Origin: a virus
Virus record (IMG/VR): IMGVR_UViG_3300020475_000527
Span: 1-23,282 of that record
Direction: 5' to 3' (one strand)
Length of the DNA stretch: 23,282 nucleotides
Shown: positions 1-21,206 of the stretch, in pieces
Numbering within the stretch: position 1 is the stretch's first letter
Layout: every line of letters starts with the position of its first letter
Notes under the pieces: model-generated
What the model saw: the letters and a program-made list of their open reading frames with translations, nothing else
What the model was told of the DNA's origin: nothing
Database searches by the model: none
Translations under genes and position numbers: made by a program

Positions 1-3000
1 AAGAGTATGAACTGTTTAGCAAGTTCATACAAAAATACTATGAGCAGTTAGAAATTCAAGGACAACCTTTGGATATTGTTAGCAATATTCAAACTTATGC
101 TGATATTGATTATTACGAGAAGAATGTATTAAATCAATCAACAACTATCAATGGGTTTATTCAATCTACTGATAGTACAATTACTGTTGCTGATACAAGT
201 TCTTTTCCTGATAGTGGTTATATAAAGATAAATGATGAAATTTGTTTTTATGCCAAAAAGACAGATACACAGTTCTTAGAAGTTAGTCGTGGTGTAAGTG
301 GTAACACGACTCTAGGAGATCTTTATGAAAAGAGTGCCTTTGTCACTACACAAGCAGCAGATCATGTATCTGGATCTACTGTACAAAACATTAGTAACCT
401 ATTCTTATATTCTTTAGTTAAGAGTTTTGAGAAACAGTACCTTACCGATTTCCCAGAAGCATATCTTAAAGAGGGAATTGATAAGAGAACTCTTATTAAG
501 AACATTGGTTCTTTCTATCAATCTAAAGGAACAGATAGTTCAATAAAGTTCCTATTCAACTGTCTTATTGACACTGATGTAGAACCAAGTATTTCATATC
601 CAAGAGATCACACATTAAAAGCTTCAGAATCTAATTGGGTACAATCTTATGCTCTCAAAGCAAAGATCTTATCTGGCAACGTTAATGATCTCGTTGGAAA
701 AACAATATCTCAGACAGATGGAGACTATGCGTCTGCTATAGTTGATAACGTTAGATATGCTGGTAAGTTTGATGGTGAAGATCTATACGAAATCATTTTA
801 AATGAAGCAAGTGTTAATGGTCAGTTCTCTATTGCAGCAAGAACAAAATTAACGAAGGAAGTTGACGCTAATACTGGTGTTGGTGATAGAATTGATGTGT
901 TTTCCACAATGGCGTGGAAAAAAACTGGTAAGTTTAATTTAGATGATGAAGTTATTACATATGAGAACAAAAATGTAAATCAATTTGTTATAAAATCTAG
1001 GACTGGCACTGGAGCACACCCTGTTGGCACTCCTGTAACATATGGTGCTAATGTTTCTGGTGCAAATGTTGATTTACTAATATTTGGTGTCTTATATAAT
1101 CTTGACAATGAAGTAGAAGCACCATATTCCAATGCTGGAGACAAAGTTGAAGTATCTGAGGCAGGGTTTTCCACAACCGATGTAAGAATTGTAGATGCTC
1201 AAAACAATTTAAGATGGATTACTAGTACTGGTACTGCTGCTATAGCAGATCTTAATCCTAATGTATCAGCTATCTTTGAAGATGGTGAAGGATACTATAT
1301 TGCATCTTCTGGATTCCCATCACATGCCATTGGTACATTACCTGCTGATGCACAGGATCAGAAACATTTAAAGATTATTAGAAAGCATCCTATTTCTGTA
1401 ACTGAGTCTTATGAGACTCAATACAGAGACGTTGGTGTTGCTATTAATGGTATTCCATTCATGGGATACAAAGATGAAGAAGTAGTTCTTAAAGGTGCTA
1501 TTCAAAATATTACTGTTAATACTAAAGGTGATGGTTATAAGAAACCTCCATATGTTTTAATCAATAATACATCTTCCCTTGCAAGAACTAGACTTGCTGG
1601 AGAAGTAGTTGAGTCTGTTATTGTTGATACTGCTGGTGACTATTCATCTATACCTACAGTAGACATTGTATCTGGTAGGAATGGAACTGCAACTGCTGTG
1701 GTTACTAATGGTGAAATAACAAGCATTGTTGTTGATAATGCTGGTGAGTACTATTCGTCAGCACCAGAAGTTAGAATTACAGATAAAGTAGGTAAAGGAA
1801 GATTTGCTGATTATGTTGCTGAAGTTTCAAATGACGGACAGATAACAGGATTTGTTAAAGTCACTGGTGGAAATCTTTACAGTCAAGAGAACGTAGTAGT
1901 TGAAATTATTGCTGTTGGACATGGAGCGACTGCGACTGCATCTATTAAAGAATGGAGAAAGGATAGGTATTATAACAATCAATCAAACTTAGATGCTGAT
2001 AATGGTTATTGGTTAGATAGTTTCAATCCATCTCTAGGACAAGGATATGCTTACTATGCTTCCCCTACTACACTAAGAGCAAATGATAGTGGAGTATCTC
2101 ATTCATCTATTATAGGGTTTGCGTATGATGGCAACCCCATATATGGTGCTTATGGATATACTAATCCTGTAGATTCTTCAACTCCTATAACTAGAATGAT
2201 GTCTAGTTATTCTAAGAATACTAGTAGAGTAGGTGGTCCTTCAACTACAACATATCCAATTGGAACTTTTATAAATGATTGGACTTATGTTGATGAATCT
2301 GGTTCTTTAGATGCTAATAATGGAAGGTATTGTGTAACTCCAGAATTTCCAGAAGGAACATATGCATATTTCATAACTGTTAATCCATCAGGATCTCCAG
2401 TATTTCCTTATATCTTAGGTAATAATTATTACTCACTACCAGTAGATTCTAATTACAATTCTTTATTGTCTCAAGATGATATTCCAGTTAATTCAAATAG
2501 ATTAAGAGTATCTGGAATTGATAGTAATGGAGATCTATCTGTTGCATTAATTGATGATGTAAAGAGAGGAGATATATCTTCAGTTTCTATTCTTAACAGT
2601 GGATCTAATTTTTCTGTTACTGGAAAGGTAGTTATTGATGATACAGATACTGAGGGATATGGTGCTGCTGCTGAAATAGAATCTGTCAAAGGCAAGTCTG
2701 TAACTTCTGTTAATGCATTAACATCCATTTATATTGAACTTTCTAATGTTGCTTACCTCTTTGATGGTGATACTATTACACAAGCAACTACTGGTGCTAC
2801 AGGAACAATAGTTGGTAATGTAGTTTCTTCTAAGATTTTTGCTTTAAGTTCAGTTACTGGAACTTTTGATAGTACAAATGTACTATCATCTAATACAAAA
2901 GTTTTATCTTTGATATTGGATAAAAATGCATCATACACTAAAGGTGCTATTCTTTCGCTTGGAGATGGTATTTCTGCTGCTACTGCTAAAGGAGAAGTAT

Positions 3001-6000
3001 TAGAATCTACAACTTCTCAAAATACTGTAAAGATAAAAGTAACAGATACTGGTTTCATTGTTTCTGATAGTCTTTTCTTAACTAGTTCTGATTTAATTGA
3101 TACTACTGGTGCAAAGATTGTTTCTATAGGATCATTAAGTGATAACTTAAGTATTTTCAATCTAGAAGATAAGGTAGCACTTCTTACAACATCACATGCA
3201 CATGGTGTAGCAGTTAATGAAACAATTGATATTAATATTGACCCAGATGATAGTACAACAAATACAACTTACTATGTTAGAAAAAGAATATATCAAGATG
3301 TAGTCCTCAAGAACCCAGTCATATCAACGAGTCTCAGTGATACTGGTGTTGCTAGAGTTGCTATCTTAAATGGTGGTAATGATTATACTCAAGGGACTTA
3401 TAATGATCTGAGTTTGATAGGTGGATCTGGATCTGGTGCAGAAGCAAATATATTGGTTTCTTCTGCTGGTCATATTACCTCAGTAGAAATTACAAACAAG
3501 GGAACTGGGTATAAGAAGTTTGACGAGTTAACTATAGGAGATGGTGCAGCAGGTGAAACTGATACTTCTACTCCTAGTTTAGTTCTTTCTGTTGATCACG
3601 TTGGATTTTCCATTCAAAATGCAGTATTGAATGTTGCTAATGGTGGTGATATCCAAAAAGGAGATCTTTTACTCGTTAATGATGAAATACTTCTAGTTGA
3701 TAGTACAAGTACAAATGCTATTACAGTTCAAAGAGCACAAAATAATACTACAAGATCTGATCATTTTGATGGAACAGTAGTTTCAGTATATGATGCTGGA
3801 TATAATCTTACTACAGGTCATGTTGTTAATGACGGAACAATAGTTTCTTATGATGCTACCACCCAAAGAGCAAGTATAGCATGGGGTTATACAGAAACAT
3901 TATCATCTATAGAAGAAGTATCTTTAAGTACAGTATTCTTTGATGAGGTAGATAGTGAAGGTAATAAGAGACTTGTACAAGTATCAAGTATTAGTTCTCC
4001 TGATATCTATTACGAGATTTCTTCTGACAATACAAACTTCACAAGAAATCCAGTTATTAATGTAAACAAGTACTACAAGTATACATTTAATACTACTCAT
4101 TCATCAATGATTGGTTGTGGTTTTGATTTCTCACCAAGTATAAACTTTAATCTAATTACACCAGAAGCAAATAGATCTATTACTGATGTTAATATTAAAC
4201 TTGGATATGGAGCAAGAATAAGTTCTAATAATTATAGTAAGAGAAAGGAATCTAATTACTTACAATATTTCTACTATGATAGGGATGGAATTGTTAATTC
4301 TGAAAAATCATATTTAAATGTTACTTCTGATCCATTGCAGGGAAATAAAACTGCAATGTATGTAACACCAAATAAAATAGTTTATTCAACTACTACCAAA
4401 TCTCCTTATAATGGTAGTGGTGTTATCAAGTATACTTCTAAGTCTCTTTTCTCTGTTGGAGAAATTGATTCTATTAAGGTTACTAATATTGGTATTGATT
4501 ATAAGAAACTTCCTATTGTAACAGGAATTATTGATGCTGATGGTAATGTTGATACTAATGTTGATTGTTATTTAAATAGCACAAACATTGGTATACCTAG
4601 GAATATAAGGATTATTAATAATGGTGGATCATATCATAATGATAAGACTCTTAATTCATCATTTACTTCTAACTATATTCTAACGTTATCTGGATTTGAT
4701 CTTGATGCTTTTAGTATTGGTGAAACCATTGTACAAAAATCAGGATCAGTTGAAATTGCTAGAGCAAAAGTTACATCTTGGAGAAAAGGTTCAAATATAT
4801 TATTAGTTAATAAGATTTCTGGAATCTTTAGAGAAAAACAACAAATAGTTGGATTATCTAGAAAAAGAACAGCAACAATTGAATCTATTAATTATAATCA
4901 ATTTTCTTCAGATATTAAAACATATTATGATAATCTGGGTTATTACAAATCAGATTCTGGAAAGGTCAGTGACGCTAATCAAAGAATAACAGATTCATTC
5001 TATTATCAAGATTATTCATACTTAGTTAAATCAGAAACTCCAATTAATACATGGAGATCTTTAATAAAAGAAACTACTCATCCAGCTGGATTTAAATTAT
5101 TTGGTGAGGTTGTAATCAACTCTGTTGTTGATGCAAAGATGAGCGAGACCTCTGATACCAGCAGAGTAAGTGTTATTCAACTTTGGGATCCTGAGAAGAA
5201 TAATGTTACTGTAGTAAGTACTAGAAGGCAGATTACTCAGAGCATTGCTTTGATGAAGAATTTGAATGTAGAGAAAGGAGTTGGTTCTGTATCAATTGAT
5301 ACAAAGAGTACTGCTGAGATAAAAGGAAATCCTGTTTTCATAAATGGAATCTTTGAAGGTTCTCTTAGTGAGAAAGGCAATCTTAGTGGTAATACAGATT
5401 TTGGTTTGATTGATTCAAATGGCAATGCTGTTAAACCATATAATGCTCAAACTTTAGTAGTAACTCTTGATGGTATATTACAAGAACCAGGTGTTGCATA
5501 TAATATTGTTGACGAAGATAAAATTGAATTTGCACAACCACCATTAAAGGATGTTACTTTCCATGCAAGATGGTTCCAGTTTAAAGATGATTCTTTGAAT
5601 GCCAAGTACTTTAAGAAGATTAAGAATATTTTCCAGAAGAATGGTAGGTGGCTTGATGCTGCAAATCAAATTGAGATGAATAAACAGTTCATTCAATCTG
5701 AGTCTCTTGGTTATATTAAAAATAAGTATCCAGAATTTAGTTGGAATACTAAAGAAACTGATTGGTATATTGATATTGGACTTGTTGTTGATGGTATATC
5801 CCATGATGTAAGATTTGGTGGAAATCAAAAGACATTATCAAATGCAGAAAGATATTTCACTGGTGGTGTATTAAGTTCTTTAACTGGTGATGCTATATTA
5901 ACTGATGCTGCAACAGGAGATAAGACTTCAGAACTAGAAGCAGCAGTTGAAGCATATGAATATGCTGTTGGTCTTGCTAAGTTATCAATAAACAATGAAT

Positions 6001-8600
6001 TACCAAGTGGTACATATACAACTGTTTCTCCATATTCAAATGGAAATATAACAATAGATTCTGAAACTCCTAGATGTGCAGATGTATTGTCTGCTATAGA
6101 AACATTGGGTGGTGTGTTGAAAACAACACTAAACAGTGGAGTAGGAACAATAGATGTTTCTTATGCTGATTACTTTGATGGAGAAAATACAATATTTGAA
6201 TTGTATTACGAAGATGGAACTTCTGTAGATACTCAAGTAAATGAAGATTTATTTATTGCGTTGAGTGGAGTATTACAACATACACCTGCTTATACCATTG
6301 ATAGAACTTCTGTTCCAAATAAAGTTGTATTTGATACCCCACCATTATGGGGTCAAGAATCAAATACAAAAACTTTACAGGAAGGTTTAGCAGTAGAGAA
6401 ATTCTTCGCACATGGAGTAGGAAATTATATAAGATGTGGAATTAATAATACTGGTATTTCTAAGCAAGGATCTACTGGTCCTTTCTTAATTTTAGATCCT
6501 AGCAATGAAATAAAGGTTTTAAGTAATCCTGAGTTTGCTTTAGTCTTTATAGATGGTGTATTGCAAAGAGAAACGTATTCATATACTATAAGTGGTCCTG
6601 CTATTAGGTTTACAAAAAATATATTTGCAGGAAGTAATGTAGAGATTATTCTTGTTTATGGAAGAGATATTAATCCATCAATAACATTATACGATTTTGA
6701 AAGAAATCAGTATTATAATGAAATTGTTTTAACATGTGATGCTGGTTCTGCTAATAACTTTACTGGATGGAAGAGATGGTATGGAGATTCTTCCGATTTC
6801 TTCCAAGTTGCATATCAGAAGATAGGTGGTAAAAAAATCTTTATTGGTAACATTAAATCTTATAGAACTACTAGTGATGAGTTAATTATTACTATTGCTG
6901 GTGGTAATCCTAATACAGACAATTCTAATATATTCTTTGCTGGAATGACTGACTTTAGCGATGAATATGAATTAACTGGAACTACAAATACTATTTCTAT
7001 AGTTAGAGATGATAGTTCTGATTATAGAATGCAAAGAAATACTGCTAAGTGGTTGTATGGATCTAAGAGAGCAGATGAAGTTTTCTATGAGAGGAGAAGA
7101 GGACTTAGTAATTTAAATGCTGGTGATATAATTAAAATTGATGGTGAGGATTCTTATAGGACAATTGATCAACTGCCACAGTATGTTTCTCCCAAAACTT
7201 ATAATGCAGGTGATGATACTTCAATTAGTTTCTTTGGTAATGTTGAAACATCCAGTTATGCAGGAGATGTTGATGGTGTAGGTCTTAGTGTTACTTGCGA
7301 GGTTACTAATGGTTCTGTAAGTTCTATTACTTGGAATAAGACAGATTTACAGTTACTATATGATACTGGAGTTCTTAAACCATCTGGTGCTAAAGATTAT
7401 CATACAACTCCTATATTACATTTCATTCCTGTAGATCAACAGGGTGGAGGTGCTAGAGCTGAAGTAAAAGTTTCTGATGGACAGATTGTTGATATTGTAT
7501 TAACCAATGCTGGATCTGGATATACAAAAGCACCTAGTGTAGTAACAGCAAGACAGTATGATGTTATAAAACAACGTGGTAGGAAGATTGATAGTTTATT
7601 CACATTATTGATTAATACTAGTCTTATACAACCATCTCCTGTTGCTATTAGTGCAGAGTGGGCTACTGAAAGAAGAGTTGAAGTTGGAACACCAGCACAT
7701 AGTATCAATCTTGAAATTAGTACACCTGTACTATGCAAAGAGAAGATAACTCTTATTATACAAAAACAACTTGATTTGAGTCCACTTCCTATATCACAGG
7801 AATATGTTACATACTATGCTACTTCTATAGCATCTGCTAGTGTTCCTACTACAGCACTGACTTCTCAGGGAACTAGTATCATTGAACTTGATCATAAAGT
7901 ACAATGTCGTTTACCAGTAATTGAAGTGGATATATACGGAAATAGATTTGTTGATCCTGGTGGACCTCCTGGAGAAATTCCTGGTGCTGGCGGTGGCGGT
8001 GGCGGTGGAGGTCAAGAAAGGATCTTCTACTATAACTTTGGTTTCGTTGACAAGAGAAGGATTTCTTATAAGTTATCCTATAATCAAGGAACATTGGGAC
8101 CGAGATTCTTGCAATGGGAAGGTGCTAAATTTATGAGCACTGGTGATATAGTATCTCCTGGCGGATTTAGTGTTTCCGCATATACTATTCAGGAATGGGA
8201 AGGATTCAATCTACAACTACAAGAATTTGAGAATAACTCAAATACTATGGTTGCAGATAATGACTATCTTTTCAACGTTGGGTATCCTTCTATAAATAAC
8301 TACTTAACCGTACTTGACACTGCTGATTTACCTGATGCAAATGGTGCTGGATATAATGCAACTGGTGAAGTAATATATACTACTACACAATACAGTGTTA
8401 CAGAAAATCCTGGAACACCTCAGGAACAGACAGCGATTCGTCACATCTATCCTGAAGCAGGAGGAAAGATTTTGATCGGTAGAGAAACTATTTCTTATAC
8501 CAGTAAAATGAGTGATCGTTTATTAGGTTGTACCCGTGGAGTTGATGGTTCTCCTATTGAAGAGCATACTATTGGTACGCATATTAGAAACGCACTATAA
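1..8600 (+). CDS. Giant virion/baseplate structural protein with YHYH-like domain (5' partial; T4 gp7 position)
   Basis: The frame is open from base 3 with no stop upstream, so the gene starts before the window; the TTG at 69 is only an internal Leu codon. The codons before it encode a helical stretch with FIQKYYEQLE, typical of the N-terminus of phage structural proteins of this type. Ordered blocks: an E-x-x-Y/RG-type beta module (about 177-335); a conserved-looking block with FYQSKGTDSSIKFLF (about 435-640); G-x-GY repeats (1504-1780, 3350-3590, 7440-7560); a YHYH-like domain (about 2000-2440); a block with YYQDYSYLVKS and HPAGF (about 4920-5118), familiar from other myovirus virion proteins; three 'DGvLQ' fibre-type repeats (5448-6665); a glycine linker (7983-8015); and a C-terminal domain ending with another RG-type module. 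Because it lies directly upstream of gp8, it occupies the place of T4 gp7 (1,032 aa), but I see no sequence match to gp7, so that role is inferred from position only. It is probably a peripheral baseplate component. The stop TAA is at 8598-8600. Confidence 0.85.
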   Translation, partial: EYELFSKFIQKYYEQLEIQGQPLDIVSNIQTYADIDYYEKNVLNQSTTINGFIQSTDSTITVADTSSFPDSGYIKINDEICFYAKKTDTQFLEVSRGVSGNTTLGDLYEKSAFVTTQAADHVSGSTVQNISNLFLYSLVKSFEKQYLTDFPEAYLKEGIDKRTLIKNIGSFYQSKGTDSSIKFLFNCLIDTDVEPSISYPRDHTLKASESNWVQSYALKAKILSGNVNDLVGKTISQTDGDYASAIVDNVRYAGKFDGEDLYEIILNEASVNGQFSIAARTKLTKEVDANTGVGDRIDVFSTMAWKKTGKFNLDDEVITYENKNVNQFVIKSRTGTGAHPVGTPVTYGANVSGANVDLLIFGVLYNLDNEVEAPYSNAGDKVEVSEAGFSTTDVRIVDAQNNLRWITSTGTAAIADLNPNVSAIFEDGEGYYIASSGFPSHAIGTLPADAQDQKHLKIIRKHPISVTESYETQYRDVGVAINGIPFMGYKDEEVVLKGAIQNITVNTKGDGYKKPPYVLINNTSSLARTRLAGEVVESVIVDTAGDYSSIPTVDIVSGRNGTATAVVTNGEITSIVVDNAGEYYSSAPEVRITDKVGKGRFADYVAEVSNDGQITGFVKVTGGNLYSQENVVVEIIAVGHGATATASIKEWRKDRYYNNQSNLDADNGYWLDSFNPSLGQGYAYYASPTTLRANDSGVSHSSIIGFAYDGNPIYGAYGYTNPVDSSTPITRMMSSYSKNTSRVGGPSTTTYPIGTFINDWTYVDESGSLDANNGRYCVTPEFPEGTYAYFITVNPSGSPVFPYILGNNYYSLPVDSNYNSLLSQDDIPVNSNRLRVSGIDSNGDLSVALIDDVKRGDISSVSILNSGSNFSVTGKVVIDDTDTEGYGAAAEIESVKGKSVTSVNALTSIYIELSNVAYLFDGDTITQATTGATGTIVGNVVSSKIFALSSVTGTFDSTNVLSSNTKVLSLILDKNASYTKGAILSLGDGISAATAKGEVLESTTSQNTVKIKVTDTGFIVSDSLFLTSSDLIDTTGAKIVSIGSLSDNLSIFNLEDKVALLTTSHAHGVAVNETIDINIDPDDSTTNTTYYVRKRIYQDVVLKNPVISTSLSDTGVARVAILNGGNDYTQGTYNDLSLIGGSGSGAEANILVSSAGHITSVEITNKGTGYKKFDELTIGDGAAGETDTSTPSLVLSVDHVGFSIQNAVLNVANGGDIQKGDLLLVNDEILLVDSTSTNAITVQRAQNNTTRSDHFDGTVVSVYDAGYNLTTGHVVNDGTIVSYDATTQRASIAWGYTETLSSIEEVSLSTVFFDEVDSEGNKRLVQVSSISSPDIYYEISSDNTNFTRNPVINVNKYYKYTFNTTHSSMIGCGFDFSPSINFNLITPEANRSITDVNIKLGYGARISSNNYSKRKESNYLQYFYYDRDGIVNSEKSYLNVTSDPLQGNKTAMYVTPNKIVYSTTTKSPYNGSGVIKYTSKSLFSVGEIDSIKVTNIGIDYKKLPIVTGIIDADGNVDTNVDCYLNSTNIGIPRNIRIINNGGSYHNDKTLNSSFTSNYILTLSGFDLDAFSIGETIVQKSGSVEIARAKVTSWRKGSNILLVNKISGIFREKQQIVGLSRKRTATIESINYNQFSSDIKTYYDNLGYYKSDSGKVSDANQRITDSFYYQDYSYLVKSETPINTWRSLIKETTHPAGFKLFGEVVINSVVDAKMSETSDTSRVSVIQLWDPEKNNVTVVSTRRQITQSIALMKNLNVEKGVGSVSIDTKSTAEIKGNPVFINGIFEGSLSEKGNLSGNTDFGLIDSNGNAVKPYNAQTLVVTLDGILQEPGVAYNIVDEDKIEFAQPPLKDVTFHARWFQFKDDSLNAKYFKKIKNIFQKNGRWLDAANQIEMNKQFIQSESLGYIKNKYPEFSWNTKETDWYIDIGLVVDGISHDVRFGGNQKTLSNAERYFTGGVLSSLTGDAILTDAATGDKTSELEAAVEAYEYAVGLAKLSINNELPSGTYTTVSPYSNGNITIDSETPRCADVLSAIETLGGVLKTTLNSGVGTIDVSYADYFDGENTIFELYYEDGTSVDTQVNEDLFIALSGVLQHTPAYTIDRTSVPNKVVFDTPPLWGQESNTKTLQEGLAVEKFFAHGVGNYIRCGINNTGISKQGSTGPFLILDPSNEIKVLSNPEFALVFIDGVLQRETYSYTISGPAIRFTKNIFAGSNVEIILVYGRDINPSITLYDFERNQYYNEIVLTCDAGSANNFTGWKRWYGDSSDFFQVAYQKIGGKKIFIGNIKSYRTTSDELIITIAGGNPNTDNSNIFFAGMTDFSDEYELTGTTNTISIVRDDSSDYRMQRNTAKWLYGSKRADEVFYERRRGLSNLNAGDIIKIDGEDSYRTIDQLPQYVSPKTYNAGDDTSISFFGNVETSSYAGDVDGVGLSVTCEVTNGSVSSITWNKTDLQLLYDTGVLKPSGAKDYHTTPILHFIPVDQQGGGARAEVKVSDGQIVDIVLTNAGSGYTKAPSVVTARQYDVIKQRGRKIDSLFTLLINTSLIQPSPVAISAEWATERRVEVGTPAHSINLEISTPVLCKEKITLIIQKQLDLSPLPISQEYVTYYATSIASASVPTTALTSQGTSIIELDHKVQCRLPVIEVDIYGNRFVDPGGPPGEIPGAGGGGGGGGQERIFYYNFGFVDKRRISYKLSYNQGTLGPRFLQWEGAKFMSTGDIVSPGGFSVSAYTIQEWEGFNLQLQEFENNSNTMVADNDYLFNVGYPSINNYLTVLDTADLPDANGAGYNATGEVIYTTTQYSVTENPGTPQEQTAIRHIYPEAGGKILIGRETISYTSKMSDRLLGCTRGVDGSPIEEHTIGTHIRNAL
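2000..2440 (+). other. YHYH-like domain inside the giant structural protein
   Basis: The translated segment has the landmarks of the YHYH domain family in the right order: a tyrosine-rich strand (YAYYASP, about 2048-2068), then SSIIGFAYDGNPIYGAYGY (about 2104-2160), then LDANNGRYCVTPEFPEGTYAYF (split here by its key residues: LD, NGR, TPEFPEGTYAYF; about 2308-2373), then a closing FPYILG. The eponymous Tyr-His-Tyr-His is read here as Tyr-Ala-Tyr-Tyr, so both histidines are absent. YHYH domains occur in bacterial secreted proteins and in marine phage structural proteins; their function in virions is not established. Domain assignment is by motif recognition only. Confidence 0.7.
5448..6665 (+). 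repeat. Three diverged fibre-type 'DGvLQ' beta repeats in the giant structural protein
   Basis: Three protein-level repeats follow the pattern: beta strand, (D/S)G(I/V)LQ, aromatic Y-x-(I/V) strand, then F-x-x-P-P or an equivalent, then a closing strand. They fall at about 5448-5580 (VTLDGILQ... FAQPPL), 6239-6350 (ALSGVLQ... FDTPPL) and 6529-6665 (VFIDGVLQ... FTKNIF). This pattern is common in phage tail-fibre and baseplate proteins, where it forms small beta domains. The copies are strongly diverged at the DNA level. They lie between the HPAGF block and the C-terminal third of the protein. The third copy lacks the PP pair. Confidence 0.6.
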
Positions 8601-8655: not shown

Positions 8656-10404
8656 ATGGCAGCTATTATCTCAGAAAAATTTAGAATCTTCAATGCGAAG
8701 CAATTCTTAGAATCCCTCAGTGAAGCTGAGAAGACACATATGTATTTCTTTGTGGGACGTTCCTCTAAATGGGATGCTCATCTTGAAATTTTTAACGTAA
8801 GCGGAACTTTTTCCGTAGGTGAAACAGTTAGTGGTGGTGGATGGAGTGGAGTAGTATCTGAAGTTCATGCTAATAGTTTGCTACTTACTACAATCCTTCC
8901 TACGGCAACTACTACACCTACATTTAAGACTGCTATAACTGGAGGAACTTCTGGTGCTACTGCTGTTTCTGGAACATATAGGTATGCAACCGAAGAGATT
9001 CCACCAGCACCAATTGATAACCAAGCTGAAAAGCAAGACGTATATACAGAACTAATCGCTGCCAAGAAGATTACTTCATCATTTGCCCGTCTTGTTGTAC
9101 CCCGTTACAACTGGAGTACAACGCTGAATCCAAAATTTGATATGTACCGTCCTAACTATGCACCTACTGCTGGTGGTGGAGGTACAGTTGGTGTACAAAC
9201 TGCTCTTAATTCTTCTGCATTACCTGGATCTAAGTTCTATGTGATGAATGGAGAATATCAGGTATTTAAATGCCTTTATAATGGAGAGAATGCTGCTAAT
9301 GCTACAGGTCAAAATGTAACTTACGAACCAAAGAGTTCTCCTAGTGCTGGCGAAGGTACATTTGCAAATGGTATATTCACAGAACCTGCTGGTACTGGTG
9401 GATACATCTGGAAGCATATGTACACCCTTACAACAGGTGATGTTCTATCTTTCCTATCAACAGACTTTATGCCTATTGCTGCTTCTGGAGAGGCATCTAG
9501 GACTGCTGTAGAAGCACTTGCCGTTGATGGTGGTGTTAGTGTTGTATTGGATAATGCACAAGGAACGACTGGATTACCAGCTTCAGAGACATTATATACA
9601 GCAATTGTTGGTGATGGTACTAATGGTGTAGTTAAATTTGAAACTACTGCTGGTGGTGGTATTTCTAGTATTAGTGTTGAAGCAGCAGGTTCAGGATATA
9701 CTTACGGTAGTGTAATACTGACACAAGCTACCACATTTACTGACGCTGGACTTACTACTGGTTATGGTAGTGCATTTACTGCTGTAGGTGGATTTGAAGT
9801 AATTGTTTCACCTGAAGGTGGTCACGGTTCTAGTGCTGAAGCAGAATTATTTGCTAAGAGAGTTATGACGAATATTCGTCTAACTTATGCAGAAGGTTCT
9901 GGAGACTTCCCTGTAGATAATGATTTCCGTAGGATTGGTATTATTCAAGATCCATTAGATTATGGAACAACCAACGTTGCAACAGATCCAACACGCCGTG
10001 GAACGTTTGCAGTTAAATTGAATGGTGCAACCGCAGATTATGTTGCTGATGAGACTATTACCCAGACTGTTACAGGTGGTACTGCAAAAGGTACTGTTGT
10101 TTCTTGGGATACTACTAATGGTATTTTGAAATATTTCCAATCACCTACTACACATACTGATAGTGGTGTAGTTCGTGCATTTGAATCTAATGCTGCTAAT
10201 GCAGTTGTTGGAGGAACATCAACTGCTTCTGGTACTGTTGATACTGCACAAAATACTGCATTGGTGGAAGTTTCATTTACTGGTGGTTTAGCAACTCCTG
10301 AGATTGAACCTAACTCTGGTGATATCGTATACATAGAGAACAGAAGGCAAATTACACGTGCTCCTGACCAGATTGAGGACATCAAGCTAGTAATTGAATT
10401 CTAA
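8656..10404 (+). CDS. 8: Baseplate wedge subunit gp8 (T4 gp8 homologue, enlarged)
   Basis: This 582-aa protein keeps the landmarks of T4 gp8 (334 aa) in order: an N-terminal KFR...F segment followed by FFVGRSSKW (residues 31-39, T4 has a similar ITFGRSEPW), VVPRYNW (147-153, T4 VIPRRDW), YQVFKCLY (201-208, T4 WLVYRCLD), GGYIWKHMY (248-256, T4 GYVWEYLF), FRRIGIIQDPL (424-434, T4 FRQISIITNPL) and the C-terminus SGDIVYIENRRQI...DQIEDI (554-576, T4 SGEMIYMENR...DQTEEI). T4 residues are quoted from memory. In T4, gp8 is a dimer in each baseplate wedge that binds gp7, gp10 and gp6. The extra length is in beta-rich insertions at about 43-113, 280-395 and 450-535. The start ATG at 8656 follows a weak AAGG at 8641-8644, and the late promoter pair precedes it. 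The stop is at 10402-10404. Confidence 0.93.
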   Translation: MAAIISEKFRIFNAKQFLESLSEAEKTHMYFFVGRSSKWDAHLEIFNVSGTFSVGETVSGGGWSGVVSEVHANSLLLTTILPTATTTPTFKTAITGGTSGATAVSGTYRYATEEIPPAPIDNQAEKQDVYTELIAAKKITSSFARLVVPRYNWSTTLNPKFDMYRPNYAPTAGGGGTVGVQTALNSSALPGSKFYVMNGEYQVFKCLYNGENAANATGQNVTYEPKSSPSAGEGTFANGIFTEPAGTGGYIWKHMYTLTTGDVLSFLSTDFMPIAASGEASRTAVEALAVDGGVSVVLDNAQGTTGLPASETLYTAIVGDGTNGVVKFETTAGGGISSISVEAAGSGYTYGSVILTQATTFTDAGLTTGYGSAFTAVGGFEVIVSPEGGHGSSAEAELFAKRVMTNIRLTYAEGSGDFPVDNDFRRIGIIQDPLDYGTTNVATDPTRRGTFAVKLNGATADYVADETITQTVTGGTAKGTVVSWDTTNGILKYFQSPTTHTDSGVVRAFESNAANAVVGGTSTASGTVDTAQNTALVEVSFTGGLATPEIEPNSGDIVYIENRRQITRAPDQIEDIKLVIEF

Positions 10405-10434: not shown

Positions 10435-13400
10435 ATGCCTCAGAAGACAAACCTTAATGTAGCTCCATACTACGACAATTTTGAACTGGATAAAAACTTC
10501 TATAAGGTTCTCTTTCGTCCTGGATATTCAATCCAAGCGAGAGAGTTAACCCAATTACAGTCTATTCTTCAGAATCAGATTGAAAGTTTTGGTAAATACA
10601 ATTTCAAGCAGGGTGAATTAGTCATTCCTGGTGAGGTTGGTCTTAACACGAGATTATCTTATGTTAAGTTGTCTTCTGTATCAGAAATACCTGTAAACCA
10701 AGATGGTCAAGTGGTTTACAAGAAATATGATATTAGTCAATTAAAAGGCGTAGAATTAAAAGGTTTAACTTCAGGTGTTATTGGTACAGTAGTTTCAAGT
10801 AAGGATGCTACCGATACAACATCTGATGTTGTGTATGTTAATTACACAAATAGTGGTGATTCAGGGAATGAGGATACATTCCGTCAAGGTGAGACCCTAG
10901 AGGTCGTAGATGGCGTTAATACACCACTCCTAGTGGTTGGAACCGATGGAAGCGTACTTCCTACTAGTATTTCTGTTACTGATCCTGACACAGGTATATC
11001 AGCGTCCCTAGAGAGCACTGCTATGGGATATGCTTCTGCTGTTCAGGTAGAAGAAGGAATTTATTTTGTAAATGGATATTTTGTAAAAAACAAATCACAA
11101 TTATTAGTAATTGATGATTATTATGATCAACCATCTGCAAAAGTTGGTTTTAAAATAGATGAGAGTTTAGTTACTCCTGAAGAAGACGATAGTTTATATG
11201 ATAATTCTGCTGGATCAAGTAATTATTCATCTCCAGGAGCTCATAGATTAAAAATTAGTCTTACCGTTGTAAAATATAATCTTGGTGAAATCACCGATAA
11301 GAATTTTATTCAGTTACTAACTGTTAAGAAGGGTACTGTACAATCACAAGTAGTACAAACAGACTACTCTCTTCTAGAACAAACTTTAGCAAGAAGGACT
11401 TATGATGAATCTGGTGACTATATTGTTGATAACTTCTCTCTAGATGTTAGAGAATACTACCAACAAAATGGTAATCTAGGAATTTATCCTCTAGATGCTT
11501 TTGGAAAAGTTAATGGTATTACAACAACAGAGGCACAGCAGAAACTTTTAGCTAGTGTAGGTCCAGGTAAGGCATATATTAAGGGATATGAGATTGTTAA
11601 TAAAGAAACAAAGTACATTCCTATCAATAAAGCAAGAGAAACTCTTGATAGAAAGGATATTCGTTTAAAAACTAGTGGTCTTCCCACATATAAAATTACA
11701 AACACTTATAATACGGTTCCTCTTAATGCTGAAGGTTCTCAATTAAGTGCTTATCCTAATGTATTTCTTTCTGCATCCTTTAATGATGGATCAATTGGTT
11801 TAAATGGTAGTGAAGAATCTACAGATTCAAAACAAACTGTTAGTCGTAGAGGAACTTTCTTTGATACCAACAGTGGTATTAAAACAATTTACATTGAAAT
11901 TCACCCAGATTCTGTAACCAAGTATAATGCTTTAGCTGATTCTAATTGGTTGAGTAATAAATCTGGTGGTGGATTATCTCAGATTGCTATTATATCAAGT
12001 AGAGTTGGTAGTAGTACTACTCCAAATGGACAAAAACCATTAGTTCCAATTGCATTTTCAAAGGTTAGTAGAATTGAAGCTAATTCAAATTCGTCTGTAA
12101 AGTATCTTGAACTTACAGTTAGTGCAAAGAAAGATGAATTAGATCAGTTTCTATTAGAATATGATATGGGTGCAGACAATCTCAGACGAGCAGTATTCTG
12201 GGATGATGCAGATGCAATGGCTGATGATCATAGTACAGCAGCTAATGTTCCTATTGGATATATTGTTGATTACAATGAAACATTTACTCCAGTTATCGGA
12301 ACAGTAAAACCAAGTAACTTTACTCTTGCTGAGAAAGGATCTGGATTTAATCCAGACACTGATACTATACTATCAAAAGGTAGACAATCTAATGGTACAT
12401 CCATTTATAATTCTATATTTGGGTTGTCATATTTTGATCCTCAATTCTTTACTAAGATTATTTTAGACCAACCACTTCAGTATGCTGAAAATGATGCAAA
12501 ATATTTTGCTCCTGGAAGATACGTATATGGTATTGCAAGCGGTGCATATGGTGTTGTAGAAGGAGAAGCACTTGGTAAGTACACGAGTACTAGAACCTTG
12601 ATGTTAAAGACTCTTTTTGGTGAGTTTAGATCTGGTGAAACTATTAGAGATGAAAATAATAATATCTTAAAAATTGCTAAAGATAATACTATTTCACATT
12701 TCATTGTTAATAACACTGGTGGTGGTTATGATACAGGAAGTAAGGTTAGGATTGATGGTGTTGAATATGATGATTCTAAAATTAAATTAAACTTAGCATC
12801 AACAGGTGGAAAAATTATTAGTGCAACTGTTGTAGATAGAGAAGGTGTTAATATTGAATATTCAAAACCACCATCTGTAATTGCTATTCAGGCAACTGGA
12901 TCTGGTGTAACTCCAACAGCTGCTCTTATTACTCCTGTTCTTGTTAGAAATGCAGTAACAACATACACTCCACAAAATGTAAAATCTTTCTATTCTAAAT
13001 TTGGTTCTGGAAGTGTAAACACATTCACTTCTGATGTTGAGTTGAATAAAGAAACATATTCTGAAGTTGTTCCTGTTACTGAGTTTACTTTTAGTGGAGA
13101 ATTAGGAAGAAAGTATATTGAATGTAATGGATTTGGTGGAGATGCAACTAAGTTCTTACAACAAGGAGATCTAGTACAGTTTACAGATAGTACTGATACT
13201 ATAGTACGTGCTCTTGTACAACAATCAACTAAACCATCTGGTATACTAAAATCAAGAATATATCTAGATAGATCTCTTCCTGCTGATGTAAGTAATAGTA
13301 GTGTTGTTAGAGTGCGTCCTTCAATTGATAACTTTAATCAAGGAAGTCTTTTATATAAAACAGGAACTACTCAAGTTAGTTCAATTGTTGCAGATAGTGA

Positions 13401-16400
13401 AGATTCTAAAATTTCATACTTCCTAAGAAGGGACTTTGTTAGTCCTGGTTCTGGTGGAGCTGGAATGATAACATTCGCTGCTCAATTGCCATTTGGTACT
13501 CAGAGATTTGTTTCATTCACCGAAAGTAATTTCCTTGTAACAGTTTTAGATCCAGGCGATGCACCTTCTATTGGTAAAGGTGACATTGTTTATCTTACCT
13601 CAGATCAAGTAAGTATAACATCTTCTGTTGATTCTGCTAGTGGTTTAACTGCTGGTAGTGTATCACTATCATTTACTGATACTTATTTTGGATCTATTCC
13701 TACAGGAGGAACTTATCCAACTCTTAAATTGACTGCTACATTAGAAGTTAGTAAGGCAAAACCAAGATTAAAGACAGCAGTTGTTAATAAGAGAATTGTT
13801 ATTGATTCTATTGGAGACAATATTATTCCTTTCAGAGGAAAGGATTATGATAGTGAAAATCTAACAGTATACAGTTATGCTGATGCATATAAACTAAGAT
13901 ATGTTTATGAAGGTACTACATCTGCTCCACCTACTGTAGATAGAAATGGTAATCTTCTTAGTGGTACTGATGTTACTAGTAGATTTACTTTTGATGATGG
14001 TCAGAGAGATACAATATATGACCTTTCAAGACTTGTTCTTAAACCAGGATCCGATTCTCCTTCAGGTCAATTAGTTATTGCTTTTGATTACTTTGAGCAT
14101 ACTCAAGGTGATTTTTGTGCTGTTGATTCTTATTTACATGAAGCTGGTGTTGGTCCCGAAGATATTCCAACATACAATTCTCCTGCTCTTGGTAAGGTAT
14201 CATTGAGTGATGTTTTAGACTTCAGACCAAAAGTTGATAACGATTCTATTACTTCTGGATTTGATAATAATTCTCTATTATCTTCTTCTAATACTAGATC
14301 ATTTACTGGAACTGGTGGTATTGTTTCTAGCACACCTGCTTCCGATTCTAATTTAGAGTATACATTCTCATTTACACAGAAGCAATACTTAGATAGAATT
14401 GATGGTTTGTTCTTGAATAAGAAAGGTGAATTTGTTGTTAAAGAGGGTAATTCATCTTTAAATCCATCTAAACCTGATCCTATTAATGATGCTATCTCTT
14501 TGTATTACATGTATGTTCCTGCTTTCACAGAAAGTAGTAAGGATGTAAGGATTATACCTGTTGATAACAAGCGTTATACAATGCGTGATATTGGCAAGTT
14601 GGAGAAACGTATTGAAAGATTAGAATATTACACTACGTTAAGTGTCTTGGAACAGCAAGCACTCAACATGCATATTACTGATTCTGCTGGAATAAATCGC
14701 TTTAAGAGTGGTTTCATAGTGGACAATTTTGAGACACATAAGATTGGATCTTTAAAGTCAGTTGATTACAAGTGTTCTATTGATACTCAACAATCTGTAA
14801 TGAGACCTCAATCTAAAGAGGATTCATTTAAGTTAGAAGAAGTTAATACAAGAGAAGATCAAAGATCAGTTTCTGGATATCAAAAATCTGGAGATCGTGT
14901 TACTCTTCCATATACAGAATTAGAATTGTTAGGAAATAACTTTGCTACTAAGACAGTTAATCCTAATCCATTTGTTGTACTTCAGTATGTTGGTGATTCA
15001 TTCATAGGACCATCAGCTGATTCTTGGTATGACACCAGTGTAGCACCTCTGGTTACAGATAACAATACAAATTTATATTCAATTTTCCTTGCAAAGAATG
15101 AACTTAAAGATGCTTTTTCAAGTCTTTATAATTCTTATAAAATAAATTGGATTGGTGCAGATAGAGCATTCTTTAACATAGGTTCATTTGCAGAAACTAA
15201 TAGTAGTATATCTGACAGTAGTGTTACTAGTGCTTCTGTTGGAAGTTCTTCAAACATTAGTCCTCAGAATAATGAAATTGGTAAAGGTATCAATACAAGA
15301 GGTGTTGGTTCTAACGTAGTAGCAACATCATTGTCATTCTTTGCAAGAAGTATTTCGGTTCAATTTAAAGTTAGTCGTCTTAAACCTAATACAAATATAA
15401 GTGTCTTCATGGAAGGACAGGATATTTCTCGTTGGGTTAATCCTGATTATAGGTATACAGGCATTGCTGGTAATTCATTATCATCTTTTAACAGTCCTAT
15501 TACTACAGATGAGAATGGTAATGCTAGTGGTATCATTTTAATACCTGCTGGACAACCACCTAGAGAGAATACTACATGGACTGGAAATGTTGATACTGTA
15601 TCATATGATACAGATGCTAGTGAAATTAGATTTTCTACTGGTGTAAAAACAATTAGATTTACTTCAAGTTCTACAAATGCTTCCAAAGATAGTGTAGAAA
15701 CATATGCTGAAGTTAAGTACTATGCTACAGGATTGCTTCCAGATAACCCTTCTTCTATTGTTTCAACTAGTCCTGCATTCTTTAAATCTAATGAAGGTAC
15801 ACAAATAGTTGATAGTAATACTGATAACCCAGCTAGACCAAATCCACTTGCACAGACATTTACTGTTGATGGATTTGATGGTGGATTGTTTACAACTAGT
15901 GTTGATCTATTCTTCTCTCAAAAGAGTTCCACTATTCCTATTAGAATTTATCTAACAGATGTTGAGAATGGTAAACCAGGTAAAAATATTATTCCTGGAA
16001 CACAAAAAGTTTTAAATCCTGATACTTATTTAAGAGTCGTTGCTAGTGACACTCTTAATATAACAAAGGGAGAAAAGATAACTGGATCTACTTCTAATGC
16101 TTCTGGTCCTATTTCTCGTATCTTTGATAAAAATAACATTGAAGTTAGTTCTTCTGCATCAGGTGTATTTACTTTAACTAATGATCAGGTCTATACATTA
16201 CTATTAAACAATCATAATGGTACTGATTTCAAGCAAGATGAAACTCTAACAGTTCCATCAATAACTACTGCTAACAATGCTAATAATACTACAATATCAC
16301 TTAAGATTGTTAAGGATTCTGGTAGGGTAACTGATCTGAAGATTAAGAATACTGGTTATGACTATGATTCTGCAATTGTAACAATTGAGAGTCCTCAACT

Positions 16401-18612
16401 ACCTGGTGGTGGTAATGCTACTGCTACAGTAAGAGTTTCTGGAAATAAAGTTTATCATTCGGAATTAGTTCTTGCTGGTTCTGAATATACCGAACCACCT
16501 GCTGTTGTTATACGTGGAACAGGTACTGGTAATGCTGGTGCTGAAATTGAATCGTTTATTACTATTGATAGTCCAGCAGTTCGTATGGGTATCTCAATTG
16601 ATGATACTGGTGTAACTGCTTCAACTACTCCAACCAAGTTTACTTTTGATTATCCTGTATATTTACAGAATGATACTGAGTATGCTCTTGTTCTTGAGAC
16701 AGATTCTATTGATTACTTGGTATGGGCTTCTGCATTAGGAGAATCTGATATTGCCACTAGCACAACTGTCACAACACAACCTGCTTTAGGTTCTCTCTTC
16801 AAGTCTCAAAATACTAATGCTTGGATAGAAGATTTATTTGAAGACATTAAGTATAAACTAAATCGTGCAGAGTTTGATATTACAAGACCAGCAGAACTTC
16901 TTCTTACAAACGAAGAACTTGGATACGAAGCATTATCTTCCAATCCAATTGAAACTGATGCTAGTTCTAATTCAACTGCAACTTCTCCATTGTTTAAAAA
17001 TAGCAACTTCAATGTTAAGGTAAGTCATTCTGATAATGGATTTGATTCTGATGGTAAATCATATGTCTTCTTTAAGGGAGTATCTGATGTTGGTGGTGTA
17101 ACTGCAACACAATTAAATTCTGGTTTATTTAAAGTCGTAAGTGCAGGTATTGATTCTTATAATATAGTATCTTCAAGTAGAGCATCATCAAGTTCATTTG
17201 GTGGTGGTACAGATGTACTAGTATCATATAATAGGAAGTTTGAAAAACTTCATGCAACTGTTCCTAATCTCTCATTTACACAGACTAGTGTTGGTAGTTC
17301 AGTTAAAACAACTAATATTGCACCTGTAGATGATAATGTTGGTACATTTACTTCATATTCTCAATCTGATTATGAAAAGACTTTCTTGAATGAAGATTTC
17401 TTCTTTATTAATCAAAAAGTTATTGCGTCAAGAATTAACGAGACTTCTAATAATATTACAAGATCTTTAACATACAAGATTGATTTATCAAGTAGTGTAT
17501 CTCATTTGTCACCATTGATTGATCTTTCTAGATCTTCAGTAAAAACTATCAGCAATAGAGTAGAAAATCCTAAAGGAAATGAAGATAGATTTGGTCGTAG
17601 AAATCAATTATTAGAATTCTATCCTGTTTATGGTTTCCAAACAAATGGTGTTGCTGGTAATGAAACAGTCACTGCTGCTGGACAAACAATAACAGGTGCG
17701 ACTAGTAAAGCATCTGGTGATGTTGTTAAGGTTGCTGGAACATACATCTATGTTAAGGTTAAAACTAATGACACATTCCAACCAGGAGAAACATTAACAT
17801 TTGAAACTGATACCTTTGCTGGAACTGTTAGTGTTGATAGTGGTGCTAATGTAACTAAGGAATCATTTGCAATTCCTGATGTTCTATCACCTCCATCATA
17901 TGTAACTGCTAGAAACCCAAGTGTTATTGCTGAAACATATGATAATAAGATTTCTGGTAAGGTTTTACTTTGGAATGAACAGACAAAAGTTCTTACTACA
18001 ATTAATGATAAGAAACCTATAAATGATGATTACACTGGTGCTATTAATACTAACACTGATTATACCAGAAATGCAGTTGTAGATTCTATGGGTGCTGATA
18101 TATTCCGTGTAGGAGATATCATTTCTTATAGTGGACAAGATGCAGAAGAGCAGTTGTACTTAGAGGTATCTAAAATATCTTATTCTGATGGAATTGAGTA
18201 TACAAGTGATATACAATCTAAGAATAGTTCAACTATCGCTAAATATGTAACGAAAGAAGTTGCTATTCAAAATCCAGCTACTGCAATTGATTTAAAGATT
18301 ACTGCTAATACCAGTGATATTAATAATATCTCAATTCTTTATAGAATTAAAAAATCATCTTCACAAGAAAACTTTGAAGATATTGAATGGATATATTTTA
18401 ACGGAACAGGACTTCCAGATGTTAATGTAATTGCAACTGCTGAGAATTCCATTAGTGGAATCACCGAGAAGCAATCTTCATATCAAGAACTATCTTATAG
18501 TGTTGAAGATCTTTCTGAGTTCTCATCATTTGCCATTAAGGTCGTAATGAAATCAAACAACCCTGCATTTGTACCGAAGATCCAAGATCTTAGGGCTGTA
18601 GCATCATACTAA
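10435..18612 (+). CDS. Giant DUF4815-type virion structural protein (baseplate/fibre connector candidate)
   Basis: This 2,725-aa protein opens with the hallmark of DUF4815 phage proteins: PYYDNF, then FRPGYSIQARELTQLQSILQ (residues about 28-47), then F-K-x-G and VIPG. A second conserved section has RYTMRDIGKLEKRIERLEYY (about 1380-1399), a probable short coiled coil, followed by RFKSGFIVDNF and CSIDTQQSVMRP. Further family-like landmarks are LKPNT (about 1650), LAQTF (about 1805) followed by SVDLFFSQKS, and SLFKSQNTNAW (about 2120). The C-terminus has a FAIKVVMKSNNPAFVP...DLRAVA block. Beta-repeat modules (nt 12700-12930, 16040-16560, 17640-17860) separate these parts. T4 places gp9, gp10, gp11 and gp12 after gp8; this gene fills the gp9/gp10 interval, so a wedge or fibre-attachment role is plausible but unproven. 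ATG at 10435; TAA at 18610-18612. Confidence 0.85.
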   Translation: MPQKTNLNVAPYYDNFELDKNFYKVLFRPGYSIQARELTQLQSILQNQIESFGKYNFKQGELVIPGEVGLNTRLSYVKLSSVSEIPVNQDGQVVYKKYDISQLKGVELKGLTSGVIGTVVSSKDATDTTSDVVYVNYTNSGDSGNEDTFRQGETLEVVDGVNTPLLVVGTDGSVLPTSISVTDPDTGISASLESTAMGYASAVQVEEGIYFVNGYFVKNKSQLLVIDDYYDQPSAKVGFKIDESLVTPEEDDSLYDNSAGSSNYSSPGAHRLKISLTVVKYNLGEITDKNFIQLLTVKKGTVQSQVVQTDYSLLEQTLARRTYDESGDYIVDNFSLDVREYYQQNGNLGIYPLDAFGKVNGITTTEAQQKLLASVGPGKAYIKGYEIVNKETKYIPINKARETLDRKDIRLKTSGLPTYKITNTYNTVPLNAEGSQLSAYPNVFLSASFNDGSIGLNGSEESTDSKQTVSRRGTFFDTNSGIKTIYIEIHPDSVTKYNALADSNWLSNKSGGGLSQIAIISSRVGSSTTPNGQKPLVPIAFSKVSRIEANSNSSVKYLELTVSAKKDELDQFLLEYDMGADNLRRAVFWDDADAMADDHSTAANVPIGYIVDYNETFTPVIGTVKPSNFTLAEKGSGFNPDTDTILSKGRQSNGTSIYNSIFGLSYFDPQFFTKIILDQPLQYAENDAKYFAPGRYVYGIASGAYGVVEGEALGKYTSTRTLMLKTLFGEFRSGETIRDENNNILKIAKDNTISHFIVNNTGGGYDTGSKVRIDGVEYDDSKIKLNLASTGGKIISATVVDREGVNIEYSKPPSVIAIQATGSGVTPTAALITPVLVRNAVTTYTPQNVKSFYSKFGSGSVNTFTSDVELNKETYSEVVPVTEFTFSGELGRKYIECNGFGGDATKFLQQGDLVQFTDSTDTIVRALVQQSTKPSGILKSRIYLDRSLPADVSNSSVVRVRPSIDNFNQGSLLYKTGTTQVSSIVADSEDSKISYFLRRDFVSPGSGGAGMITFAAQLPFGTQRFVSFTESNFLVTVLDPGDAPSIGKGDIVYLTSDQVSITSSVDSASGLTAGSVSLSFTDTYFGSIPTGGTYPTLKLTATLEVSKAKPRLKTAVVNKRIVIDSIGDNIIPFRGKDYDSENLTVYSYADAYKLRYVYEGTTSAPPTVDRNGNLLSGTDVTSRFTFDDGQRDTIYDLSRLVLKPGSDSPSGQLVIAFDYFEHTQGDFCAVDSYLHEAGVGPEDIPTYNSPALGKVSLSDVLDFRPKVDNDSITSGFDNNSLLSSSNTRSFTGTGGIVSSTPASDSNLEYTFSFTQKQYLDRIDGLFLNKKGEFVVKEGNSSLNPSKPDPINDAISLYYMYVPAFTESSKDVRIIPVDNKRYTMRDIGKLEKRIERLEYYTTLSVLEQQALNMHITDSAGINRFKSGFIVDNFETHKIGSLKSVDYKCSIDTQQSVMRPQSKEDSFKLEEVNTREDQRSVSGYQKSGDRVTLPYTELELLGNNFATKTVNPNPFVVLQYVGDSFIGPSADSWYDTSVAPLVTDNNTNLYSIFLAKNELKDAFSSLYNSYKINWIGADRAFFNIGSFAETNSSISDSSVTSASVGSSSNISPQNNEIGKGINTRGVGSNVVATSLSFFARSISVQFKVSRLKPNTNISVFMEGQDISRWVNPDYRYTGIAGNSLSSFNSPITTDENGNASGIILIPAGQPPRENTTWTGNVDTVSYDTDASEIRFSTGVKTIRFTSSSTNASKDSVETYAEVKYYATGLLPDNPSSIVSTSPAFFKSNEGTQIVDSNTDNPARPNPLAQTFTVDGFDGGLFTTSVDLFFSQKSSTIPIRIYLTDVENGKPGKNIIPGTQKVLNPDTYLRVVASDTLNITKGEKITGSTSNASGPISRIFDKNNIEVSSSASGVFTLTNDQVYTLLLNNHNGTDFKQDETLTVPSITTANNANNTTISLKIVKDSGRVTDLKIKNTGYDYDSAIVTIESPQLPGGGNATATVRVSGNKVYHSELVLAGSEYTEPPAVVIRGTGTGNAGAEIESFITIDSPAVRMGISIDDTGVTASTTPTKFTFDYPVYLQNDTEYALVLETDSIDYLVWASALGESDIATSTTVTTQPALGSLFKSQNTNAWIEDLFEDIKYKLNRAEFDITRPAELLLTNEELGYEALSSNPIETDASSNSTATSPLFKNSNFNVKVSHSDNGFDSDGKSYVFFKGVSDVGGVTATQLNSGLFKVVSAGIDSYNIVSSSRASSSSFGGGTDVLVSYNRKFEKLHATVPNLSFTQTSVGSSVKTTNIAPVDDNVGTFTSYSQSDYEKTFLNEDFFFINQKVIASRINETSNNITRSLTYKIDLSSSVSHLSPLIDLSRSSVKTISNRVENPKGNEDRFGRRNQLLEFYPVYGFQTNGVAGNETVTAAGQTITGATSKASGDVVKVAGTYIYVKVKTNDTFQPGETLTFETDTFAGTVSVDSGANVTKESFAIPDVLSPPSYVTARNPSVIAETYDNKISGKVLLWNEQTKVLTTINDKKPINDDYTGAINTNTDYTRNAVVDSMGADIFRVGDIISYSGQDAEEQLYLEVSKISYSDGIEYTSDIQSKNSSTIAKYVTKEVAIQNPATAIDLKITANTSDINNISILYRIKKSSSQENFEDIEWIYFNGTGLPDVNVIATAENSISGITEKQSSYQELSYSVEDLSEFSSFAIKVVMKSNNPAFVPKIQDLRAVASY

Positions 18613-20991: not shown

Positions 20992-21206
20992 TGAACCATT
21001 TAAAAGTCAAGGACAACGATCATCTCTACCGTGACGTAAACACTGGTGCGATCATAAATACTGACAGATCTTCTTTTGAGAAATATAAAAAGTCTAGACA
21101 AAAATTTCAGAATATGGAAAAGGAATTGGACTTTGTTAAAGATGAGTTATACGAGATCAAATCCCTACTCAAACAGATAGTGAAGTCCGATGACAGCAAT
21201 ACTTAG
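20991..21206 (+). CDS. Small coiled-coil protein in the fibre gene cluster
   Basis: This 71-aa protein starts with MNHLKVKDNDHLYRDVNTGA, followed by IINTD; similar short proteins are known from marine T4-like phages without an assigned function. The C-terminal half is a regular coiled coil: hydrophobic residues F39, M42, L46, V49, L53, I56, L60 and I63 follow exact 3-4 spacing with charged residues between. The ATG at 20991 overlaps the previous stop as TAATG, which favours it over the upstream in-frame TTG at 20958 that would lie inside the lectin-like gene. Its 3' end overlaps the next fibre gene by 17 bases. Its size, coiled coil and position among fibre genes are compatible with a fibre assembly factor, as T4 gp57A (79 aa, helical) is, but no sequence similarity to gp57A is claimed. 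Confidence 0.82.
   Translation: MNHLKVKDNDHLYRDVNTGAIINTDRSSFEKYKKSRQKFQNMEKELDFVKDELYEIKSLLKQIVKSDDSNT

Follow-up and report, generated by a model that had tools for sequence, protein, structure and literature searches.

A cyanophage gp8 baseplate wedge protein with probable accessory domains of two module families at three sites of a T4-like core

Introduction

The best described counterpart of the protein studied here is gp8 of phage T4 (PDB 1n7z, 5hx2, 5iv5), which forms a dimer, touches gp10, gp7 and gp6, and also helps gp6 to fold (PMC3004832). T4 gp8 (334 aa) and gp8 of Klebsiella phage Lilla1 (9f4a, 341 aa) are both without the three added modules that are the subject of this work. 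In cyano- and pelagimyophages, the baseplate is the structural region least like that of T4 (PMC7029224). The cyanophage gp8 family, PHROG 438 (S-RIM2, P-SSM2, S-WAM2 and others), is related to our protein over its full length and carries the second and third modules, whereas the first is found among cyanophage gp8 only in a clade with S-WAM2, S-RSM4, S-CAM1, S-CAM3 and S-B43. Similar modules also occur in cyanophage gp14 (PHROG 460), which contains tandem units of ~35 residues together with GSGY-type units. This is a different protein, located at the neck, and as far as we have seen it has only the modules in common with gp8. Because wedge proteins are packed tightly, the uptake of domains by a conserved wedge core shows how contractile tails diversify. 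Here, we describe gp8 in a viral stretch of 23,282 bases (the window), where its gene is flanked by gp7-like and gp10-like/VrlC-type genes.

Results

Three extended sites in gp8

The gene and its three inserts have the following positions in the window:

8656..10404, + strand: gp8, baseplate wedge subunit, 582 aa
8776..8988, + strand: insert 1, GETI-type, six-stranded, clade-specific (residues 41-111; at T4 gp8 residues ~50-56)
9493..9840, + strand: insert 2, GSGY-type (residues 280-395; in all cyanophage-type gp8 examined)
9994..10260, + strand: insert 3, GETI-type (residues 447-535; in all cyanophage-type gp8 aligned)

The window gene is a cyanophage gp8. Pfam Phage-Gp8 (PF09215) matches the protein at E 4.9e-12 (46 bits against a cut-off of 25), and PHROG 438, 'baseplate wedge subunit', matches it end to end at E 3e-160. 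Its relatives come from 498 phage records, the majority annotated as baseplate wedge or gp8, and the closest annotated ones come from Synechococcus myoviruses (family Kyanoviridae). In the window, as in the annotated relatives, the gene sits between those for gp7 and gp10, which is the 7-8-10 order of T4. The gp7-like neighbour upstream has 2843 residues (ORF 69-8600), and the gp10-like/VrlC-type neighbour has 2725 residues (ORF 10435-18612) and contains DUF4815.

The core landmarks of the window gp8 align to T4 gp8 (hhalign E 8.6e-29), and hmmsearch to 1n7z gave E 1.9e-23 with the C-terminal landmarks matched, in agreement with a first-pass annotation that had called these landmarks intact. 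That annotation had also described a protein about 250 residues longer than T4 gp8, and the excess is 248 residues (582 vs 334 aa). The span that it reported, 8782-10260, corresponds to gp8 residues 43-535, the extent covered by the inserts, as opposed to the full ORF at 8656-10404. When some 110 gp8 sequences are aligned, extra length falls at all three proposed sites, with 71 residues in the window against 6 in T4 at site 1, 116 against 45 at site 2, and 86 against 7 at site 3. At site 1, members of the window's clade have 69-86 residues, and all other aligned gp8 have 0-17. At site 2, cyanophage types have 98-127 residues and T4 types ~45, while phiM12 and BUCT608, both very divergent, have 180 and 175, respectively. 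Site 3 spans 82-120 residues in gp8 of cyanophage type but is shorter in T4 types (7) and in BUCT608 (22).

All 77 of the cyanophage-type gp8 sequences aligned carry inserts 2 and 3. Insert 1, by contrast, is found in 36 sequences and absent from 57, and in a gp8 tree built on core columns only, all 36 lie beyond one branch (SH-aLRT 99). The inserts had been presented as one set of acquisitions, to be compared across cyanophage gp8; that comparison shows a general presence for inserts 2 and 3 but confines insert 1 to one clade, and a single set gives way to inserts of different ages. Judged from these sequences, insert 1 is a single later gain in the window's clade, and inserts 2 and 3 would already have been in the common ancestor of cyanophage-type gp8. 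Since inserts 2 and 3 occur in every cyanophage-type gp8 examined, they are family features that are special only by contrast with T4, and this difference from T4 may reflect a gain in one lineage or a loss in the other. Within the clade, identity is 53-60% in the inserts vs 68-83% in the core, indicating that the inserts change faster. This faster change fits tolerant peripheral parts, and it is equally expected of any tolerant loop. We also looked for a recent DNA-level duplication and for odd base composition, and found neither.

A separate observation concerns S-CAM1 (NC_020837). Its gp8 is annotated from locus position 874, whereas the homologous start is at 601, 273 bases further upstream, and both the N-terminus and insert 1 seem to be missing from the annotated protein.

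Kinship of the inserts

The motif strings that the first-pass annotation quoted for inserts 1 and 3, which it took for the same kind of module, are found in the gp8 sequence. Direct comparison of the two single sequences is weak (shuffle P about 0.05). Comparison of their family profiles gave P 8.8e-4 (local) and 2.5e-3 (global), in register, with GETV/DETI, G-x-V-V, an LL strand and the GGTS motif aligned. The first halves of the two inserts match at P 3.4e-5, and for the second halves sequence kinship was not established (P 0.078). Paired by family profiles, insert 2 showed no kinship with insert 1 or insert 3 (P 0.43 and 0.11), and a search by sequence for similarity between the two halves within one insert found none, although the two units are plain to see in gp14.

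We then turned to units outside gp8. An iterated search started from insert 3 and restricted to proteins other than the flagged gp8 yielded a profile of 16 units (neck gp14, gp7-like and gp10-like); a divergent gp8 of phiM12 slipped into the iteration, giving a region of insert 3 and none of insert 1, and was removed afterwards, so that it influenced recruitment. A corresponding search seeded by insert 1 alone drifted and was excluded. The non-gp8 profile matches window insert 1 at 6e-4 and window insert 3 at 2.6e-5, the latter value being partly circular because the insert 3 profile seeded the search, and the former being free of this. Of 81 gp8 ORFs, 38 had a match at insert 1 and 66 at insert 3, with zero matches elsewhere in gp8, and reversed or shuffled databases gave no match below 0.1. 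With both inserts matched and the controls empty, the idea of one kind of module stands: inserts 1 and 3 belong to the same small β-domain family (GETI-type), whose members apparently have six strands in two halves of ~35 residues. Insert 2 belongs to a different, second family (GSGY type). It is matched by an iterated GSGY profile at E 2.9e-24, and this profile has many copies in other tail proteins and no match among shuffled sequences.

Predicted structure

The AlphaFold2 model of full gp8 has pLDDT 87.6 and pTM 0.77. Its best PDB match by Foldseek is T4 gp8 (1n7z; E 2.7e-12), where the TM (target) of 0.59 and the high rmsd of 12 over the whole chain make domain placement in the model uncertain, and in a viral structure library other phage gp8 models rank first. 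Modelled alone, insert 1 forms all six strands with pLDDT 92.5 and pTM 0.81, and it is thus a predicted autonomous domain; the earlier view of the inserts as domains, against extensions of core strands, is supported for this insert. Insert 3 has high pLDDT throughout in the full model and a strand run of its own (451-456, 467-472, 475-485, 490-494, 516-519 and 525-528). In this model, inserts 1 and 3 are each predicted with six strands, which seem to follow a similar order and to carry the motif on the second one.

Foldseek on isolated insert 1 gave no significant match (best E 0.22). Nearly all of the 50 matches listed were F1 ATP synthase chains (TM 0.42, rmsd about 8), and the size of the region matched suggests that it is the N-terminal β-barrel of F1-ATPase alpha. 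This most consistent PDB resemblance of insert 1 is a hint of a small closed barrel, and we claim no kinship from it. The insert profiles compared with the PDB by sequence found no solved relative. Weak fold matches of the full gp8 model to Listeria phage A511 gp105 and to phi812 baseplate/arm chains (E about 0.02; three of them with prob 0.94-0.97) hint that gp8 may be distantly related to the arm proteins of double-layered baseplates.

Module copies in other tail and neck proteins

Further copies of both modules lie in the two large neighbours of gp8:

1596..1952, + strand: two adjoining GSGY-type copies (1596-1793 and 1764-1952), gp7-like protein; E 1.8e-9 and 2.4e-7
3339..3563, + strand: GSGY-type copy, gp7-like protein; E 2e-12
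4677..4841, + strand: GETI-type copy, gp7-like protein; insert 3 profile E 2.0e-5
7383..7559, + strand: GSGY-type copy, gp7-like protein; E 1.8e-18
16180..16569, + strand: two adjoining GSGY-type copies, gp10-like/VrlC-type protein; E 1.4e-6 and 1.2e-7

The GETI-type copy at 4677..4841 was also detected at 8.6e-5 with another profile and at 0.0055 with the iterated unit profile, and the GSGY-type copy at 3339..3563 is matched independently by PHROG 438 (E 1.2e-10). With host proteins named by annotation, the GETI-type module was found in gp14 (as two tandem units of ~35 residues), gp7-like and gp10-like proteins and one tail fibre protein, and the GSGY type in gp7-like, gp10-like and gp14 proteins, a baseplate hub protein and tail-fibre-like proteins. 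PHROG 460 (head closure Hc2, gp14) matches 8 of 31 insert 1 sequences weakly (best E 0.0052), and PHROG 693 (tail fibre) matches 16 of 31 (best E 0.0037). Neither the insert 1 profile nor the insert 3 profile had a match in the whole T4 genome, neither iterated profile matched the T4 baseplate region, and no curated Pfam or NCBI (NCBIfam) family matched either module.

Several other features of the window deserve mention. The gp10-like protein (residues about 1875-1920 and 2404-2465) and the gp7-like protein (about 900-920) contain GEKITGSTS / GQTITGATS / GDTITQATTGATG motifs, and these stretches resemble diverged GETI-type units at a level below threshold. Also in the gp7-like protein, residues 641-773 match a YHYH domain (E 1.2e-29) and residues 1614-1681 match Baseplate_wedge weakly, so that this protein is a mosaic of several modules. 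At 21190-23280, an ORF of 697 aa that is open at the stretch end has segments of the 'VQSDWTETDNTDDAFIKNKP' type in several repeats and, towards its end, the sequence 'GTVVAWSG...PSGYQLCDG', and is a probable tail fibre.

Discussion

Our analysis suggests that the window gp8 is the wedge core known from T4 with peripheral accessory domains at three sites, that these domains belong to two shared tail-module families, and that insert 1 was added last, a reading that we give a probability of about 0.75. The accretion of domains on this known protein is real and well supported, and the inserts are mostly ordinary for cyanophages. By analogy with T4, the core presumably keeps its task, in which a dimer of gp8 connects gp7, gp6 and gp10. 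The modules at the periphery would add bulk and extra protein contacts and so thicken the wedge, and this added bulk would match the much larger gp7-like and gp10-like partners. We give even odds to the peripheral exposure of the modules and their role in packing.

There is little chance that the extra segments are elongated core strands and loops in place of domains. This explanation is largely refuted for insert 1, which forms all six strands when modelled alone (pTM 0.81), and it sits poorly with the confidently predicted, separate strand run of insert 3; it has most room at site 2, where T4 already has 45 residues and part of insert 2 may replace core structure. We regard as similarly improbable that convergence or composition produced the likeness of inserts 1 and 3. 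Gly/Thr/Ser-rich β segments are compositionally biased, and the weak single-sequence comparison would be expected from such a bias, but matches to the non-gp8 profile are confined to inserts 1 and 3, the reversed and shuffled databases are empty, and insert 2, of similar composition, matches neither. If inserts 1 and 3 are true relatives within one gene, insert 1 might have been copied from insert 3 inside gene 8 instead of coming from another tail gene. At the present divergence of the sequences we find this doubtful, though less so than the two preceding explanations, as a DNA-level trace of copying is absent and the PHROG matches of insert 1 sequences are to gp14 and tail fibre families and never to gp8's own, a comparison limited by the gp8 PHROG model, which covers insert 3 and is without insert 1.

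A different function has also been considered, in which the modules are receptor- or glycan-binding domains through which the baseplate touches the host surface, with host range as the trait for which insert 1 was selected. The fast change of the inserts would suit such a role, as would the units of related type in tail fibres, seen through PHROG 693 (which matches 16 of 31 insert 1 sequences) and in the S-RIM2 tail fibre. However, the same modules occur in neck gp14, far from the host surface, the GSGY type occurs in the hub, and zero sugar-binding Pfam families match insert 1, making host binding unlikely. The presence of the modules in neck, hub and wedge makes a general structural role more likely than receptor binding, and the baseplate being the least T4-like structural region (PMC7029224) fits this.

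The recurrence of both module families in gp7-like, gp10-like and gp14 proteins marks them as shared parts of an enlarged tail machine. The chances are balanced that two undescribed families have spread through neck, wedge, hub and fibre proteins by repeated insertion into conserved cores, as a common construction kit. Neither these modules nor a Kyanoviridae baseplate structure turned up as described in published work, in a search with little coverage of subscription journals. The shared module kit is more interesting than the gp8 inserts themselves, and with profiles for both modules, some regions of the giant 'structural proteins' in marine phages could be annotated. Related clades differ in having or lacking insert 1 at a single site, which makes its effect directly testable. 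If true, the construction kit would be how the tails of cyanophages and their kin grew far beyond that of T4, with insert 1 as a recent, datable insertion.
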